64,000 nucleotides of DNA from Candidatus Zixiibacteriota bacterium (lineage in GTDB: Bacteria > Zixibacteria > MSB-5A5 > SM23-73-2). The stretch's first letter is position 1; every line of letters starts with the position of its first letter. The position numbers and the translations under genes are program-made. The stretch spans positions 27,470 to 91,469 of the forward strand of contig JAUWYR010000002.1 of NCBI GenBank assembly GCA_030615745.1, in the 5' to 3' direction. The notes beneath the pieces were generated by a model. It made no database searches. It was not told the origin of the DNA and saw nothing but the letters and a program-made list of their open reading frames with translations. Shown here in pieces: positions 11,692-61,547 of the stretch.

Positions 11692-14055
11692 ATGTTAAAA
11701 AAGATTGATCTCTTTATTTGCCTGATTATCTTTTTGCTTTTAAAATTTAACTTATGTTTTTCTCAAAATAATGTAATTGAGGATGGATTAAAACTATACG
11801 AAAAGCTTAAAGGTCTGAGTTTAGATGATTCGAAAATAGCAGAAGTAGTTGATTTATCTATTAAAAAAGATGTTGCTACTTTTAATTTAAATAGAGGGAA
11901 GATATATTTTTTAAAGCCTTTTTTGGAGAAAATCACAGGTTTTGTTTTCATCGGAGAGGGGACATTTGAGTTTACCCCGCCTACTGAGATCGAGAAATAT
12001 CAATTGGAAAGGTTTACCAAAACAAGAAAGTTGAATCTGAAGTTTACCCAAGCTTATTTCAGATTTACAGACAACACCGTAGAGGAATTCGAAGGCAAAT
12101 TACGATTAGCCTCAGGAGAGATTGAAAGTAGAGCAAAAAAGATTTTAAAGGATGGGCAAAAAAGGGCTTTGAGGAAATTAAAAGAGAATTTGAATGTTAG
12201 GATTTTAAAAGACCTTTGTGAAGAATCTTCAAATGGATTTTTCTACTGTGATATTTTTCCTAAAGATGAAAGTAGGGTGTTTTTCAGCTATTACCCAGAT
12301 GAGTTTGAGGAAGTATTATTGAAAAGAGAGAGTCCGGGTGAAATAAGCCAGACAGATGTTGTTTGTTCATTTCATAAAAAATCCGAAGGACTCTTCGAGA
12401 AGGATTATGAGAAAAGATTCCCAACAGATGAAACGGATGAAACAGATGATAAGGATGAAATAAGGATTGAAAATTATAAGATGGATGTTAAGATAAAGGC
12501 TTCAGGTGAACTGGAAGCAGAGGTGGAGATAGCTCTTATCCCTCTTTTAGATGGGATTAGGGTTTTGAAATTCTATTTAAGTGATAAACTTAAAGTAAAA
12601 GAGGTAAAGGACGAAAATGGAGATTCTTTGGGTTTTATTCGTGAGAAAAATCTTTACGACCTTTTTGTGATTTTACAAAAGCCTTTGGAAAAAGAAAAAA
12701 AACTTAAGCTTTTCTTTAAATATTCAGGAGATGTCTTGGACCAGAACTGGTATGGGGATTATTATATAAAATCGACGACTTACTGGTATCCGAGGTATGG
12801 GTATTTTACCAGGTCAAGTTATGATTTAACTTTCCGAACGCCCGAACAGTATAAGTTCGTCTCCATTGGAAAGAAGAAAAAAGAGAAAAAAGAGGGTGAG
12901 TATCTTATAACTTCATGGAAAGAGGATTTTCCAGTATCAGTTGCATCTTTTAACATGGGTAACTTCGATATATACGAGATGAAACATAAGGGTTTGCCAG
13001 ATGTGAAAGTCTTTTATGTAGAGGAAAGCCACAGGAGATTTACTCAGGATTTTAACAGATATCTGGCTAAGTATGATCTTTCAGCTGACATAATGACACG
13101 TGGCGCTCATATGAAGGAGAATATCGGTGCGGATGTTACAAACAGTATAAATTTCTTTCAAAAAACATATGGAAAGCTCCCCTTTTCCAAGATCGCGGCA
13201 ACTGAGATCCCGGCATCTTATGGTCAGGGCTTTCCGGGTCTTTTACATCTTTCCTGGGGAAGTTTTCAAAAGGAGGAGGAGTTCAAGCTTGAAGCATTCA
13301 GAGCACACGAGGTCTCCCATCAGTGGTGGGGTCATATAGTTGGCTGGAAAACATATCATGACCTCTGGTTATGCGAAGGTTTTGCTGAGTATTCTGGTTT
13401 ATGGTTTGCCCAGCTTTCAACCAAGGATAACAAAAAATTTTTCACGGAGCTCGAATCTTTTAGAAAGGATATTTTAGGAAAAGGGAATCCTTACTCAGAT
13501 GGTTCAAAAGCAGGTCCTTTGTGGCTCGGATACCGGCTCGATTCCTCAAAATCAAAAGACTACGTAACCTTGGTATATGAGAAAGGTGCTTATATTTTGC
13601 ATATGTTGAGGAATATGATGATCGATTTTTCAAATTTCAGCGATGATAAATTCAAAGACATGATGAAGGATTTTGTTAAAACCTATTATGGTAAAGATGC
13701 GAGCACCGGGGATTTCAAAAAGATAGTTGATAAACATACAGGCGAGGATATGTCCTGGTTTTTCGACCAGTGGGTTTACGGCACTGAGATTCCAAAATAC
13801 ACTTATTCATATTCAATAGACAATGTTGATAATAAATTTCAAGTTACCATCAGGGTTAAGCAAAAGAATGTTTCACCCAACTTCAAGATGCCGGTTCCTA
13901 TTGTAGTTGTTTTTAAAGATGAATCATATTCTATATTCAGGATAATGGTTGACAAGCCAAAAGATGAGATTAAATTACCTTTGGTGGAAAAAGAGGTAAA
14001 AGAGGTTGTTTTCAATCCTTTTCATTCGGTTTTGTGTGAGGTGGAAAAAGAGTAG
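11692..14055 (+). CDS. M1-family zinc aminopeptidase, secreted
   Basis: The 787-residue protein has a signal peptide (LFICLIIFLLLKFNLCFSQ) and a gluzincin centre HEVSHQWWG near residue 540 followed 18 residues later by the Glu of LCEGFAEY, giving HExxH-x18-E. The upstream ASYGQGFPGLLHLSW stretch occupies the place of the GAMEN exopeptidase motif, though in a divergent form, so strict aminopeptidase activity is not assured. The N-terminal 220 residues are unrelated to the classical M1 fold. Between them lie two dispersed repeats translated in frame: KSEGLFEK from TCCGAAGGACTCTTCGAG and the acidic TDETDETDDKDE run from the GATGAAACGGATGAAACAG repeat. Confidence 0.88.
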   Translation: MLKKIDLFICLIIFLLLKFNLCFSQNNVIEDGLKLYEKLKGLSLDDSKIAEVVDLSIKKDVATFNLNRGKIYFLKPFLEKITGFVFIGEGTFEFTPPTEIEKYQLERFTKTRKLNLKFTQAYFRFTDNTVEEFEGKLRLASGEIESRAKKILKDGQKRALRKLKENLNVRILKDLCEESSNGFFYCDIFPKDESRVFFSYYPDEFEEVLLKRESPGEISQTDVVCSFHKKSEGLFEKDYEKRFPTDETDETDDKDEIRIENYKMDVKIKASGELEAEVEIALIPLLDGIRVLKFYLSDKLKVKEVKDENGDSLGFIREKNLYDLFVILQKPLEKEKKLKLFFKYSGDVLDQNWYGDYYIKSTTYWYPRYGYFTRSSYDLTFRTPEQYKFVSIGKKKKEKKEGEYLITSWKEDFPVSVASFNMGNFDIYEMKHKGLPDVKVFYVEESHRRFTQDFNRYLAKYDLSADIMTRGAHMKENIGADVTNSINFFQKTYGKLPFSKIAATEIPASYGQGFPGLLHLSWGSFQKEEEFKLEAFRAHEVSHQWWGHIVGWKTYHDLWLCEGFAEYSGLWFAQLSTKDNKKFFTELESFRKDILGKGNPYSDGSKAGPLWLGYRLDSSKSKDYVTLVYEKGAYILHMLRNMMIDFSNFSDDKFKDMMKDFVKTYYGKDASTGDFKKIVDKHTGEDMSWFFDQWVYGTEIPKYTYSYSIDNVDNKFQVTIRVKQKNVSPNFKMPVPIVVVFKDESYSIFRIMVDKPKDEIKLPLVEKEVKEVVFNPFHSVLCEVEKE

Positions 14056-50237: not shown

Positions 50238-51854
50238 ATGAAATTAGTAACTTCTGAACAGATGAGAAATATTGACAAGAAAACAATTACGGGAGTGAAA
50301 ATCCCTGGTCTGGAGCTGATGGAGAAAGCAGGGAGAGGTTCTGCAGAGGTGGCAAAAGAGATGCTTGGGGGTGAGGTGGAAGGTAAGAAGGTTTTGATCT
50401 TCTGTGGTAGAGGAAATAACGGTGGGGATGGATTTGTTGTGGGGAGGTATCTTTCTCAGTGGAAAGCAGATGTCTCCTTCTATCTTTTAGCTAAAAAAAA
50501 TGATTTGAAAGGTGATGCAAAGACCAATTTAGAAAAAGCTGAGAGACTAAATTTGCCCATCTATGAGATTCTGAATGAGAAGGATTTGCCAAAAATAAAA
50601 GATACTTATTTGATAGTGGATGCGATCTTCGGAACAGGTTTCAAAGGAAAAGCAGAAGGGTTGGATTATGAGGTGATAAAATTCATCAATGAGTCTGACT
50701 CCTCTGTTTTAGCTATCGATGTCCCCTCAGGACTGAATGCTGATAACGGAGAGATTGAAGGTATATGTGTGAAAGCTAAAAGCACAGCCACAATGGGTTT
50801 ACCCAAAATAGGTCATTTTTTCCATCCAGGAAAAGACTTTTCTGGAAAGGTAAAAGTCATAGATATAGGTGTTCCTGAGGATGTGATAGATGAAGAGAAT
50901 ATAAATCTGAATGTGATAACAAAAAAGATGGTATTGGCTTTACTTCCCCAAAGAGCAGGTGATGCTTACAAAGGGAGCTGCGGCAGGGTTGTCTTGATCG
51001 CCGGGTCAACCGGAATGACTGGTGCAGCAGCCTTAGCATCCTTGTCCTGTTTAAGGGTGGGAGCCGGGATGGCTATTTTGGGTCTGCCTAAGACCTTAAA
51101 TGATATAATGGAGACAAAGTTAACTGAGGTTATGACCGAACCTCTGCCGGATGTGAGAAAAAAGGGTGCTTTAGCTTTAAGAGGTCTTGGTGAGATAAAT
51201 CAACTTTTGAAATGGGGAGATTGCCTGGCTTTGGGACCAGGATTAGGTCAGCACTTCGAAACAATTGAGTTAGTTAGAAGATTGGTCAAAAAGACCAATT
51301 TGCCAACAATAGTTGATGCAGATGGTCTGAATGCTTTAGCCAAAGATAGCTCCATTTTAAAAGAGATAGACCTGCCTTTGATTTTAACACCCCATATTGG
51401 TGAGCTACAGAGATTGATCGATGTTCCCTTAGAGGAGATTGCAAAGGATAGGATAAAGTATGCGATAGAGTCTGCCAAGGAGTTCAACTGCATTTTAGTT
51501 TTCAAAGGTGCTCCAACGATTGTCGCTTTTCCAAAAGGTGAAGCTTTTGTTAATTCAACTGGAAATGCTGGGATGGCAACCGCAGGGTCAGGGGATGTTT
51601 TAACCGGGATAATAATCGGACTTTTAGCTCAACTCCTTTTCGATGAAAAAAGAAAAGATGAAGATAAGATGAATTTAATGTTAGATTCAGCCAAAAGTGG
51701 AGTTTTCATCCATGGCTTAGCCGGGGATTTAGCTAAAGATGAGAAGGGTGAGATGGGGATGATAGCCGGGGATATAATGGAGAAGATACCAGAGGCTTTG
51801 AGAAAGCTGTCAATGGTCAACGGATCGAGCGGTCAACGGATGAAACGGATTTAG
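50238..51854 (+). CDS. nnr: Bifunctional NAD(P)H-hydrate repair enzyme
   Basis: The 538-residue fusion contains an N-terminal epimerase domain (LMEKAGRGSAEVA, FCGRGNNGGDGFVVGRYL, DVPSGLNADNGE) and a C-terminal ADP/ATP-dependent dehydratase of ribokinase fold (RVVLIAGSTGMTGAAALAS, LTPHIGELQRL, GNAGMATAGSGDVLTGII). Together they repair hydrated NAD(P)H. It starts 9 bp after pyrF. The last residues (MVNGSSGQRMKRI) are encoded by the first copy of the GGATGAAACGGAT repeat, so its original end has been replaced. Confidence 0.95.
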   Translation: MKLVTSEQMRNIDKKTITGVKIPGLELMEKAGRGSAEVAKEMLGGEVEGKKVLIFCGRGNNGGDGFVVGRYLSQWKADVSFYLLAKKNDLKGDAKTNLEKAERLNLPIYEILNEKDLPKIKDTYLIVDAIFGTGFKGKAEGLDYEVIKFINESDSSVLAIDVPSGLNADNGEIEGICVKAKSTATMGLPKIGHFFHPGKDFSGKVKVIDIGVPEDVIDEENINLNVITKKMVLALLPQRAGDAYKGSCGRVVLIAGSTGMTGAAALASLSCLRVGAGMAILGLPKTLNDIMETKLTEVMTEPLPDVRKKGALALRGLGEINQLLKWGDCLALGPGLGQHFETIELVRRLVKKTNLPTIVDADGLNALAKDSSILKEIDLPLILTPHIGELQRLIDVPLEEIAKDRIKYAIESAKEFNCILVFKGAPTIVAFPKGEAFVNSTGNAGMATAGSGDVLTGIIIGLLAQLLFDEKRKDEDKMNLMLDSAKSGVFIHGLAGDLAKDEKGEMGMIAGDIMEKIPEALRKLSMVNGSSGQRMKRI

Positions 51855-51890
51855 CGGATAATCTGTTTAATCAGTTAAATCCGTTGATGG
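51837..51890. repeat. Repeat family E, left copy flanking the GxxExxY gene
   Basis: CGGATGAAACGGATTTAGCG ... TTAAATCCGTTGATGG is a 54-bp imperfect palindrome. The copy at 52316-52369 differs at only a few positions. Confidence 0.85.
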
Positions 51891-51903
51891 TCTTTTGTTA
51901 ATT

Positions 51904-52311
51904 ATGAACAAGAGTATACCTCATCAAGAACTCACTTACAAAATTATTGGAGCGGCAATGGCGGTTTATAATGAGTTGGGTCCTGGATACAAGGAAGAAA
52001 TCTATCAGAAAGCTTTAAAAGTAGAGCTTTCCTCTAATAACATTTCTTTTGAACCTCAGAAAGCGCTATCTATCATATTTAAGGGAACTCAGGTGGGGCT
52101 ACACTTTTTAGATTTTTTGGTTGAAGATAAGGTGGTTGTGGAAATTAAAGCTTTATCACGTTTGGATAATTCTTGCGAGGCTCAAGTTATATCCTATCTC
52201 AAAGCCAGCGGATGTGAGGTAGGATTGTTGATAAATTTTGGAGAGGAAGAATTGATTTACAAAAGGATATTGCCGCCAAAGAAGATAAAAGATAAACGGT
52301 TAGCTGATTAG
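51904..52311 (+). CDS. GxxExxY family protein
   Basis: The 135-residue product begins SIPHQELTYKIIGAAMAVYN and contains GPGYKEEIYQKAL, the defining GxxExxY motif, then FLDFLVEDKVVVEIKAL, which looks like a D-x-ExK nuclease-like core (VEDKVVVEIKA). The family is related to PD-(D/E)XK nucleases; the function is not established. It is flanked on both sides by 54-bp repeats of family E and lies between unrelated housekeeping genes, which suggests that gene and repeats travel together. The ATG at 51904 is chosen over a TTG at 51895. Confidence 0.88.
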   Translation: MNKSIPHQELTYKIIGAAMAVYNELGPGYKEEIYQKALKVELSSNNISFEPQKALSIIFKGTQVGLHFLDFLVEDKVVVEIKALSRLDNSCEAQVISYLKASGCEVGLLINFGEEELIYKRILPPKKIKDKRLAD

Positions 52312-52315
52312 TCAG

Positions 52316-52369
52316 CGGATGAAACGGATTGAGCGGAAAATCCGTTTAATCTGCTAAATCCGTTGAGCG
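52316..52369. repeat. Repeat family E, right copy flanking the GxxExxY gene
   Basis: CGGATGAAACGGATTGAGCG ... CTAAATCCGTTGAGCG is the same length and orientation as the left copy at 51837-51890. Confidence 0.85.
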
Positions 52370-52390
52370 TTTTAAATCAAAGAAGAAAAA

Positions 52391-53587
52391 ATGAGAGAAG
52401 AGATTTCTGAAAGAATCAAAAAAATAACTGACCAGCTTTTTCCAAAATTGGTAAAGCTAAGAAGGGAGTTTCATCAATATCCTGAATTAGCTTACAAAGA
52501 GTTTGAAACATCAAAAAGGATTACAAGAGAATTAAAAAAACTAAGACTTGAAGTTAAAACCAAAGTTGCTAAAACTGGAGTTGTTGGTTTGTTAAAAGGT
52601 TCAAAAGGTGGCAAAACTGTTGCTCTGCGTGCTGATATGGATGCACTGCCTTTGGTTGAGCAAACCAACCTGCCCTACAAATCAAAAAACAAAGGTGTTA
52701 TGCATGCCTGTGGACATGATCTGCACATGAGTTGCGTTTTAGGTTCTGCTATGGTTCTAACTAAATTAAAAGACAAGTTATCTGGAAATGTTAAATTCAT
52801 CTTTCAGCCTTCTGAGGAAGTTGGACCCGGAGGGGCTAAGCCTATGATAGAGGAAAAAGTTTTGGAAAACCCTAAAGTTGATGGGATTTTTTCTCTGCAT
52901 TCTGACTCCTCTATCCCTGTTGGGAAAGTAGGTATAAAATTTGGACCTATGATGGCTCAAGCTGATAGCTTTGATTTAGCTATAATTGGTAAAGGTGGTC
53001 ATGGGGCCAGACCACAAGATGGGGTGGATGCTATAGTGGTTGCCTCACAGGTGGTCTCTTCTTTGCAGACTATTGCCTCAAGAAAAATAAATCCAACCTG
53101 TCCAGTAGTTGTATCTATTGGACAAATAGAGGGTGGGACTGCCCGTAACATCATATGTGATAAAGTGATATTAAAAGGAACTGTGCGCAGTTTAGAAAAG
53201 AATGTGGCAAAAAAGGCTCCCATTCTGATAAAAGAGATAACCTCTGGTATAGTTAAATCTTTTGGCGCAGATTTCGAATTCCATTATAGCCCCGGTTATC
53301 CAGTTTTGATAAATGACCCCAAGATGACAGATTTGGCTAAAAAAGCAATAGAGTTGCTTTATGGCAAAGATAAAGTTTATAAGATTTTAAATCCTATGAT
53401 GGGAGCAGAAGATTTTGCATATTTTCTTCAAAAAATACCCGGCACAATGATGAGATTAGGTATAAGGAATGAGAAAAAGAAAGCGATCTATCCCTGGCAT
53501 CACCCTAAATTTAGAGTGGACGAAGATGCGATAAAGGTTGGCACTGCGGTTTTGAGCCAGTGTGTCTTGAATTTTTTATCAGGTTAA
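52391..53587 (+). CDS. M20-family amidohydrolase
   Basis: The 398-residue metallohydrolase has RREFHQYPELAYKE, LRADMDALPLVEQTNLPY, HACGHDLHMS and MMGAEDFAYFLQKIPG, the pattern of the amidohydrolase branch of M20 (hippurate or N-acyl-amino-acid hydrolase type). The Cys of HACGHD and the His residues bind metals. The GKGGHGARPQDGVDAI segment begins the dimerisation domain. The substrate is unknown. It is 10 bp upstream of the propeller protein gene. Confidence 0.92.
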   Translation: MREEISERIKKITDQLFPKLVKLRREFHQYPELAYKEFETSKRITRELKKLRLEVKTKVAKTGVVGLLKGSKGGKTVALRADMDALPLVEQTNLPYKSKNKGVMHACGHDLHMSCVLGSAMVLTKLKDKLSGNVKFIFQPSEEVGPGGAKPMIEEKVLENPKVDGIFSLHSDSSIPVGKVGIKFGPMMAQADSFDLAIIGKGGHGARPQDGVDAIVVASQVVSSLQTIASRKINPTCPVVVSIGQIEGGTARNIICDKVILKGTVRSLEKNVAKKAPILIKEITSGIVKSFGADFEFHYSPGYPVLINDPKMTDLAKKAIELLYGKDKVYKILNPMMGAEDFAYFLQKIPGTMMRLGIRNEKKKAIYPWHHPKFRVDEDAIKVGTAVLSQCVLNFLSG

Positions 53588-56358: not shown

Positions 56359-57906
56359 ATGAAGAAAGGACTTCTTATGGTGGTAATCTTTCTTTGTCTG
56401 AGCTTGCCGGCTTTTGCCCAGGACACCCTGCTGTGGAGCCGCACCTACGGGGGGAGTTCTTTTGACGATGGCCATTCTGTCCAGCAGACCACAGATGGGG
56501 GGTATATAGTGTCGGGATGTTCAGAGTCTTTTGGTACCGGCCCCGGTGATGTCTATCTGATCAAGACGGACTCTCTCGGTGACACCCTGTGGAGCCGCAC
56601 CTACGGGGGCAATGCCCCTGTATGGGATTGGGGCTATTCTGTCCAGCAGACCACAGATGGGGGGTATATAGTGGTGGGAGCTACACAGTCTTTTGGTGCC
56701 GGCGAGTGGGATGTCTATCTGATCAAAACCGATTCCAGCGGTGACACCCTGTGGACCCGCACCTACGGGGGCAGTGGAATAGACTGGGGCTATTCTGTCC
56801 AGCAGACCACAGATGGGGGGTATATAGTGGCAGGAGGGACGACCTTTCTTGGTGCCGGCTTTACCGATGTCTATCTGATCAAGACCAACTCCCTCGGCGA
56901 CACCCTGTGGACCCGCACCTGCGGGGGGGGTAACTATGATGTGGGCTGGTCTGTCCAGCAGACCGCAGATGGGGGGTACATAGTGACGGGGAGGACAGAA
57001 TCTTTTGGTGCCGTCAACAATGTTGTCTATCTGATCAAGACCGTCTGCCTCGGCGACACCCTGTGGACCCGCACCTACGGGGGAAGTGGCGAGGATCAGG
57101 GCTGGTTTGTCCAGCAGACCACAGATGGGGGGTATATAGTGGCAGGAGAGACAGGGTCTTTTGGTGCCGGCAATGCGGATGCCTATCTGATCAAGACCGA
57201 CTCCCTCGGCGACACCCTGTGGAGCTGCACCTACGGAGGCAGTGGCGGTGATTGGGGCTATTCTGTGCAGCAGACCACAGATGGGGGGTATATAGTGGCG
57301 GGAGAGACAAGGTCTTTTGGTGCCGGCGCGTACGATGCCTATCTGATCAAGACCGACTCCCTGGGTGACACCCTGTGGAGCCGCACCTACGGGGGCCCCT
57401 ATAATTATTTGGCTTACGCACGAACCTTTGTCCAGCAGACCACAGATGGGGGGTATATAGTGTCGGGACGGACATTATCTTTTGGTGCCGGCGGTTACGA
57501 CGTCATGCTCACCAAGTTTGACTCCCTGGGGAACAGCTGTATCGGAAAGTTTGTCTCATCTACTGTTATGAGTGTTTCTCCCACAGTTACCAGCCCAGCC
57601 ACGGTGGTAGATACACCTGCCACCATAGTCACCAGCCCTACGGAGACAGTGACATCGCCTGCCACTGAAGTTACGACCGTGTGTGTGCTCATCTGCGGCG
57701 ACGTCAATGGAGATGGAGGTATAAACTTATCAGATGTAATCTATTTAGCAAACTATTTGCTTAAAAGCGGAGACCCACCAGACCCAATTTATCTAGCTAA
57801 TCCCAATGGGGATGGAGTAATAAACTTGGCTGACGTCATATACTTAGCCAACTACTTGATTAAAAGTGGTCCTGCTCCGTATGGTTGTGGAAACTATGGA
57901 CAGTAA
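56359..57906 (+). CDS. Secreted repeat protein with C-terminal dockerin-like domain, copy 1
   Basis: The 515-residue protein has a signal peptide (GLLMVVIFLCLSLPAFAQ), seven repeats of about 52 residues (DTLWSRTYGG ... SVQQTTDGGYIV ... DVYLIKTDSLG), a linker rich in TSPAT, and a C-terminal type I dockerin-like domain with two calcium loops, DVNGDGGINLSD and NPNGDGVINLAD. The repeats are likely beta-propeller blades. The domain may anchor the protein or bind a cohesin, but no cohesin gene is in the window. Codon use is clearly GC-richer than the neighbours, and the repeats are nearly identical at DNA level. Strong AGGAGG upstream. Confidence 0.85.
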   Translation: MKKGLLMVVIFLCLSLPAFAQDTLLWSRTYGGSSFDDGHSVQQTTDGGYIVSGCSESFGTGPGDVYLIKTDSLGDTLWSRTYGGNAPVWDWGYSVQQTTDGGYIVVGATQSFGAGEWDVYLIKTDSSGDTLWTRTYGGSGIDWGYSVQQTTDGGYIVAGGTTFLGAGFTDVYLIKTNSLGDTLWTRTCGGGNYDVGWSVQQTADGGYIVTGRTESFGAVNNVVYLIKTVCLGDTLWTRTYGGSGEDQGWFVQQTTDGGYIVAGETGSFGAGNADAYLIKTDSLGDTLWSCTYGGSGGDWGYSVQQTTDGGYIVAGETRSFGAGAYDAYLIKTDSLGDTLWSRTYGGPYNYLAYARTFVQQTTDGGYIVSGRTLSFGAGGYDVMLTKFDSLGNSCIGKFVSSTVMSVSPTVTSPATVVDTPATIVTSPTETVTSPATEVTTVCVLICGDVNGDGGINLSDVIYLANYLLKSGDPPDPIYLANPNGDGVINLADVIYLANYLIKSGPAPYGCGNYGQ

Positions 57907-59989: not shown

Positions 59990-60535
59990 TGACCGCACTT
60001 AATTAGTTGCGTCAGGAGCTACTCCTGATGGTTGGATGGTGTCGGGACGAGGTCCCGACACAACTTGAAAAAGTGATTTCCAATCTTCTGGTTTATTAGT
60101 GGGAATAAAAATTTTATTCATAATGAGTCTCCTATTGAGAATTTTCGATAACTCGTTCATATCTTAAGTTCGTAGGTACATACCTCTGGCTTTAGTCTTT
60201 TTTCATTAACCATCGGGCGACCACAAGGGGCTCCCCTACGTATTAGTGTAATGTCCCACAAATAGCTTTACTATCCTGTCATTCCTAAGCTTTGCGAGGA
60301 ATCTCGGCAAGAGATTGCTTCGTCCCACGTGGGCTCGCAATGACAGTGTAAAGAAATGTTAGAGACACTACATTAGGTTTATTTTTTGGTAAACAAAGAA
60401 GCATTTATAGGAATATCAGGAGTTACCTCCTGACACCCATTCCGTAAAGTTAAAACATAAAAAAGATTTGCTTAATCTTTTTCATCCGCTCAATCCGTTG
60501 AAAGTAAGCTCTTTTATATATTTTTTTAAATTTTT
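59990..60535. other. Gene-free stretch rich in dispersed repeats
   Basis: I find no credible gene here. It holds a TCAGGAG/CTCCTGA hairpin (about 60011-60027), a GTCGGGACGAGGTCCCGAC hairpin (about 60041-60059), a family C element with GAGATTGCTTCGTCCCACG and CTCGCAATGACAG (60277-60346), another TCAGGAG-TTAC-CTCCTGA hairpin near 60416 and a family E fragment (TTCATCCGCTCAATCCGTTG) near 60480. Confidence 0.7.
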
Positions 60536-61473: not shown

Positions 61474-61547
61474 CTTCATCCGCTCAATCCGTTCAATCCG
61501 CTGACCGTTCAATCCGTTGACAACTCTATCCGCTCAATCTGCTGACG
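61474..61547. repeat. Tandem repeat-family-E fragments
   Basis: CATCCGCTCAATCCGTTCAA, CCGCTGACCGTTCAATCCG and TATCCGCTCAATCTGCTGAC follow one another. The last part forms the stop and terminal codons of the ThiD2-like gene. Confidence 0.75.

Follow-up and report, generated by a model that had tools for sequence, protein, structure and literature searches.

The GxxExxY gene and the repeats that flank it in the window (the whole 64,000-nucleotide stretch of Candidatus Zixiibacteriota DNA that was analysed) probably form a minimal mobile element of ∼0.5 kb, in which a Cas4-like nuclease would be encoded between inverted repeats that it recognises. The arrangement of the gene between repeats is general and occurs in many bacterial phyla and in some archaea. 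This arrangement, its generality, its association with the catalytic site, the match between repeat word and protein clade, the states of the site in other genomes and an internally deleted derivative were read directly from the DNA; the mobility and the repeat specificity of the element are what we infer.

Organization of the window locus

The locus and the further repeat copies of the window comprise the following features.

50238..51854, + strand: upstream gene, 3' end inside the left repeat
51815..51831, + strand: extra partial unit (GGTCAACGGATCGAGC) in tandem with the left repeat
51832..51887, no strand assigned: left repeat, a palindrome of 9 bp units (AACGGATGA AACGGATTT AGCGGATAA plus reverse complement)
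51904..52311, + strand: GxxExxY gene (135 amino acids), PD-(D/E)XK nuclease family, D70/E80/K82 intact
52311..52369, no strand assigned: right repeat, a 9 bp-unit palindrome of the left repeat's family
52391..53587, + strand: downstream gene, used to locate the window junction in relatives
12423..12447, + strand: gene-less copy of repeat units (C61:39892-39916)
60484..60499, − strand: gene-less copy of repeat units
61478..61543, − strand: gene-less cluster of repeat units

A sequence-only reading had placed the gene between two near-identical repeats of the same orientation. The repeats are real: positions 51838–51887 and 52317–52366 differ at five of 50 positions (90% identity), and identity is 79% over 80 nt when the shoulders are included. 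Their equal orientation is only weakly defined, because each repeat is itself an imperfect palindrome, with three AACGGATNN-type units of 9 bp and then their reverse complement. The arms of the left repeat (51833–51859 and 51861–51887) are 78% complementary and those of the right repeat (52314–52330 and 52339–52355) 88%, and as single-stranded DNA both repeats fold far better than shuffled sequences (z = −4.7 for the left and −3.6 for the right). The left repeat extends over the 3'-terminal codons of the upstream gene and includes its stop codon (51852–51854). Identity of the repeats as a structured RNA was rejected, as 51600–52600 gave no Rfam match up to E = 1.

Repeats were mapped over the whole genome by pattern searches. 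With one mismatch allowed, AACGGATKRARCGGAW matched 44 + 32 times, compared with 1 + 1 for a reversed-pattern control. The 2.28 Mb genome contains ∼34 repeat clusters, of which only two, the flanks, adjoin the window gene; nearly all clusters are gene-less, as the sequence-only reading had noted for the copies scattered elsewhere. No plasmid DNA similar to the whole repeat–gene unit was found. Elsewhere in the window, an ORF at 56359–57906 has seven or more TYGGS..DWGYSVQQTTDGGYIVAG-type repeats, and its C-terminus (DVNGDGGINLSDVIYLANYLL) is dockerin-like.

The window protein

In profile searches the full-length window protein scored 136.6 bits against TIGR04256 (GxxExxY; cut-off 35) and 131.4 bits against PF13366 (PDDEXK_3; cut-off 22), which places it in this family. 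The D-x-ExK-like core noted from the sequence was identified as D70, E80 and K82 (D...E-x-K), and this triad, together with a predicted restriction-endonuclease-like fold, assigns the protein to the PD-(D/E)XK superfamily. The AlphaFold2 model is confident (pLDDT 91). Its best match among solved folds is Cas4 SSO0001 (Foldseek E = 3.5e-5, Z = 10.6), followed at lower scores by RecB/λ-exonuclease types and Hjc resolvases (1gef, Z = 7.3). Cas4 and archaeal Hjc are thus the nearest solved folds, but the protein belongs to neither by sequence; Pfam Cas4 similarity is marginal and was seen in 32 of 68 GxxExxY members.

No CRISPR context was noted around the window gene, the neighbours of which are metabolic genes: the upstream gene is presumably NAD(P)HX epimerase/dehydratase-like, and the downstream gene is one that we take to encode an M20-type amidohydrolase. 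Two assignments were tried and rejected: a defence system, for which PADLOC gave only a marginal Cas4b match, and phage cargo, for which there was no phage record and no confirmed IMG/VR relative.

GxxExxY loci in bacteria and archaea

In a scan over 84,980 species genomes (many of those sampled are metagenome-assembled), five seed proteins served to rank the matches by similarity, and the 80 loci obtained represent many phyla as well as Methanosarcinales archaea; 78 of them were testable. Repeats were called by comparing the upstream DNA with the reverse complement of the downstream DNA (inverted-flank score ≥34). Strong inverted flanking repeats were found at 43 of the 78 loci but, among 436 control ORFs taken from these contigs, at only seven (Fisher p ~1e-33). 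The check proposed in the sequence-only reading, whether GxxExxY genes of other genomes also lie between similar repeats, was thus clearly positive. A typical pair (locus L071) consists of CCACGAATGCACACGAATACACACAAAT 5' of the gene and its reverse complement 3' of it.

The set was widened to 149 distinct genes by the addition of paralogs and plasmid records. Recurrence of 5-mers in the flanks of this set peaked at lags of 9 (695) and 10 (494), about ten times above shuffles (∼60), and across the family the repeat units are spaced at 9 or 10 bp; the peak is absent from a catalytically dead clade (see below) and around RAYT genes. CC[AG]C occurs in the outermost unit of 39 of 87 repeats, compared with 4.6 in shuffles. 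The repeats keep their polarity (similarity 0.206 in the same orientation versus 0.161) and the median end-to-end length of the element is 525 bp. All seven plasmid-record matches, which were chosen by protein similarity only with the flanks disregarded, have repeats by eye, inverted or direct, several of them below the automatic threshold. The commonest layout is left half, gene, right half (65 of 122 triad-intact genes), although the automatic classes are indicative only and missed the imperfect palindromes of the window itself. The upstream stop codon is ≤12 nt away from the left repeat's outer edge in 41 of the 78 cases. Distribution is patchy, with one to seven diverse GxxExxY copies per genome.

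Repeat words and protein clades

The units have one of the core words GAT, GAG, GAA, AAT or AAG. On the protein tree the core word requires ten changes, compared with a mean of 23 and a minimum of 18 after shuffling, and with 27 for host phylum over the identical rows. When protein and repeat similarity were compared for cross-phylum pairs only, three of 5000 permutations were as high (Mantel test). One supported clade combines planctomycete, myxococcal and archaeal members, all with the GAG word, and one locus of Calditrichia (L115) has two genes and two different words. Paralogs within Mongoliitalea genomes differ in word; an ortholog pair of 96% identity keeps it. Because repeat word and protein clade are coupled in this way, recognition of the repeats by the GxxExxY protein is supported. 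At another site, the sister species of the window's organism has a frameshifted GxxExxY gene with a different, CTGAAT-like word (G001:C107:20448-20788; L055, L056).

The catalytic triad

Flanking repeats were found for 98 of 122 genes with intact D70/E80/K82 and for 0 of 16 full-length genes of a triad-less paralog clade from the window's class; as this clade is one lineage, 0/16 counts as one or a few independent events. The remaining 24 triad-intact genes (about a fifth) fall below the repeat threshold, and several of them show a weaker repeat by eye. The window's genome has a second GxxExxY gene (on C54), which is without repeats and has lost the triad. Genes that lack flanking repeats while repeats remain abundant, which the sequence-only reading had set against its own proposal, were found only in the dead clade and among part of the 24 genes below threshold.

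A triad-less GxxExxY paralog without repeats is conserved in L002 (1501-1955) and in L037–L054 of the window's class (EMK, ETK, ENK, DLS etc.); in L002, L037, L040 and L044 it adjoins a small lysine-rich H1-like ORF (MPAKKKKTVKKKKVTKKKK...). The triad-less clade looks domesticated, and the one paralog clade that looks vertically kept is the clade without repeats.

Comparison of sites in related genomes

The junction occupied in the window was found in several states. In G003, G004 and G010 it has no repeat, in G001 (same genus) one gene-less palindrome, in G007 and G009 repeats around non-coding filler, and in G000 a palindrome, a gene and a palindrome. This presence and absence at the same site among relatives supports the earlier suggestion of a mobile unit. 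In three relatives (L142, L144 and L145) an unrelated palindromic insert (GTCGGGCAAGGGTGCCCGACC...TACGTAGGCAGGGCTCCCAGCCCTGC) lies upstream of the amidohydrolase gene at this same junction.

Occupied sites at radA of Bacteroides, between fabD and fabG of Sphingomonas and at uvrA of Alloprevotella each have empty counterparts in relatives; gain and precise loss account for empty sites alike. No target-site duplication was seen at the three junctions, for which the relatives compared are diverged. The C-terminal residues of UvrA are replaced at the uvrA site, where a second genome (G215) has an element with another repeat word. The orthologous site of a Mongoliitalea congener is occupied by another GxxExxY gene, which is oppositely oriented and encodes a protein of 57% identity. 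In Microcoleus an element adjoins a derivative that retains both repeats and the first and last codons of the gene, the middle of which is missing, and other Microcoleus species have gene-less units in tandem, with three consecutive units in one genome. Decayed GxxExxY copies with stops and frameshifts were also found. Ignavibacteriales L067 (1829-2197), with an in-frame stop, and Bacteroidetes L131 (4845-5213) share the same upstream and downstream genes. L228 and L229 (G152) are tandem arrays with fixed periods of ∼143 and ∼207 bp, which contain GxxExxY-type repeat ends and other repeat families.

The idea that repeat number depends on the presence of the gene found no support within the order of the window's genome, where G005, G007 and G001 keep 19–25 copies without an intact gene. 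As repeat number is not lower where the gene is missing, the repeats may persist as relics; the counts are as expected of relics and fall short of a demonstration.

Proposed mechanism

The nuclease would recognise its cognate array of 9–10 bp units, either as a duplex or as a hairpin/cruciform, and would cut there. Host repair or replication would then place a copy of the element, or of its gene-less palindromic derivatives, at a new position, in many cases precisely at a gene end, where the edge of the repeat would supply a stop codon. A contribution of host repair must be assumed because a lone PD-(D/E)XK enzyme hydrolyses DNA and is not, to our knowledge, able to join strands. Gene-less palindromes would survive the loss of the gene, both as relics and as MITE-like, non-autonomous copies.

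Homing endonuclease genes include PD-(D/E)XK types such as I-Ssp6803I and resemble the GxxExxY genes as small nuclease genes that split a pseudo-palindromic site and are patchily spread. It is conceivable, if unlikely as the whole account, that the GxxExxY genes spread by such drive only: the palindromes would be spread by other means, the nuclease would cut gene-less ones, repair would copy the gene in and the split palindrome would protect the occupied copy. The gene-less palindrome of G001 lies exactly at the position of palindrome–gene–palindrome in G000, the split layout is the commonest and different genes occupy one site, all as such drive would have it. The repeat-free empty sites at uvrA, radA and fabD–fabG indicate instead that gain or loss can affect repeat and gene jointly, the internally deleted derivative, which retains both ends of the gene, is transposon-like, and the window gene stands between two complete palindromes, neither of them split. 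Unlike homing endonuclease genes, GxxExxY genes are not found in an intron, an intein or a conserved host gene, being intergenic and often directly after stop codons, and unlike homing sites their repeats appear and disappear with the gene and have many gene-less copies. Some events (G001 to G000) could be no more than homing-type spread into palindromes already present, which leaves the repeat-free empty sites unexplained.

Comparison with known systems

The proposed element shares with insertion sequences and MITEs a single gene flanked by inverted repeats, derivatives that are gene-less through internal deletion, and empty sites. It differs from insertion sequences in having no known transposase, the sole Pfam/NCBIfam match being PDDEXK_3/GxxExxY, and in inverted repeats that are periodic arrays of units. 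Terminal inverted repeats are present across the family; in the window, a whole palindrome forms each end.

REP/REPIN–RAYT systems (PMC3116915, PMC8266576) likewise consist of dispersed palindromic repeats, many in doublets, and of a small gene for the cognate enzyme that adjoins its own class of repeats; they also have several distinct enzyme–repeat pairs per genome and co-evolution of enzyme and repeat. Their enzyme is a HuH/Y1 transposase and their repeats are GTAG/CGTC-tagged hairpins, whereas the GxxExxY element has a PD-(D/E)XK nuclease and arrays of 9–10 bp units read towards the gene; GxxExxY elements, unlike REP/RAYT, occur in multiple copies that are gained and lost along with the gene. 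One definition given in PMC3733652 describes a REP as a GTAG- or CGTC-tagged palindrome of 20–40 bp. In the window unit these tags are absent and no Y1 (HuH) gene lies beside the repeats.

It would be quite improbable that the GxxExxY gene is mere cargo, with the repeats either mobilised by another enzyme, such as a Y1/RAYT transposase, or acting as recombination hot spots. Y1_Tnp genes were indeed present in all nine genomes tested, and repeats are abundant also where no intact GxxExxY gene is present, but the Y1_Tnp flanks are classical REP palindromes such as GTCAGGAGCCCCGCGCTCCTGAC with no 9/10 bp peak, few other ORFs have such flanks (7/436), shifts in repeat word accompany shifts in protein clade across phyla and the association with repeats depends on the catalytic triad. 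Because the Y1_Tnp palindromes differ, a RAYT/REP origin of the GxxExxY repeats was rejected in the tested genomes, so that these genomes have two repeat systems side by side, each with a different enzyme. The RAYT-like Y1_Tnp genes L365, L361, L362, L370 and L371 are flanked by classical REP palindromes as an independent repeat system.

That the repeats are regulatory or structural (terminators or chromosome architecture) beside a housekeeping GxxExxY nuclease is scarcely credible: they do lie just past stop codons (41/78 within 12 nt) and fold as hairpins, and one paralog clade looks vertically kept, but that clade is the one without repeats, the one to seven copies per genome are diverse and patchily distributed, decayed copies and same-site turnover occur, and the protein tree mixes phyla and domains.

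In the open-access literature, only two papers were found to name GxxExxY and neither connects the family with repeats, in line with the statement of the sequence-only reading that it had seen no such role assigned to the family; typical unit strings occur in none. COG4636 nucleases, a different PD-(D/E)XK family, were reported without an association with mobile elements (PMC551604).

Implications

GxxExxY is a widespread family whose function is not known, and the intergenic repeats of 9–10 bp units in bacteria are likewise unexplained; a link between them gives both a testable role. The comparisons suggest that this large family drives a widespread kind of small mobile DNA that is apparently undescribed so far. 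For the wider proposal the case is about evenly balanced: GxxExxY proteins (PF13366) may be the mobilising enzymes of an unrecognised superfamily of minimal elements in bacteria and archaea, spreading their own gene and gene-less copies, with a lone Cas4-like nuclease that would read the array of 9–10 bp units at both ends and rely on cutting and host repair for its spread. If this is true, many dispersed repeats of the 'ACACGGAT/CGCAGAT/CGCAGAG' type are GxxExxY products. It would add a class of mobile elements with a PD-(D/E)XK nuclease as the only enzyme, parallel to, yet separate from, the REP/RAYT systems of the same genomes. The clade-wise coupling of enzyme and word would offer a ready set of nuclease–DNA specificity pairs, for which the catalytically dead, apparently domesticated branch would serve as a natural control.
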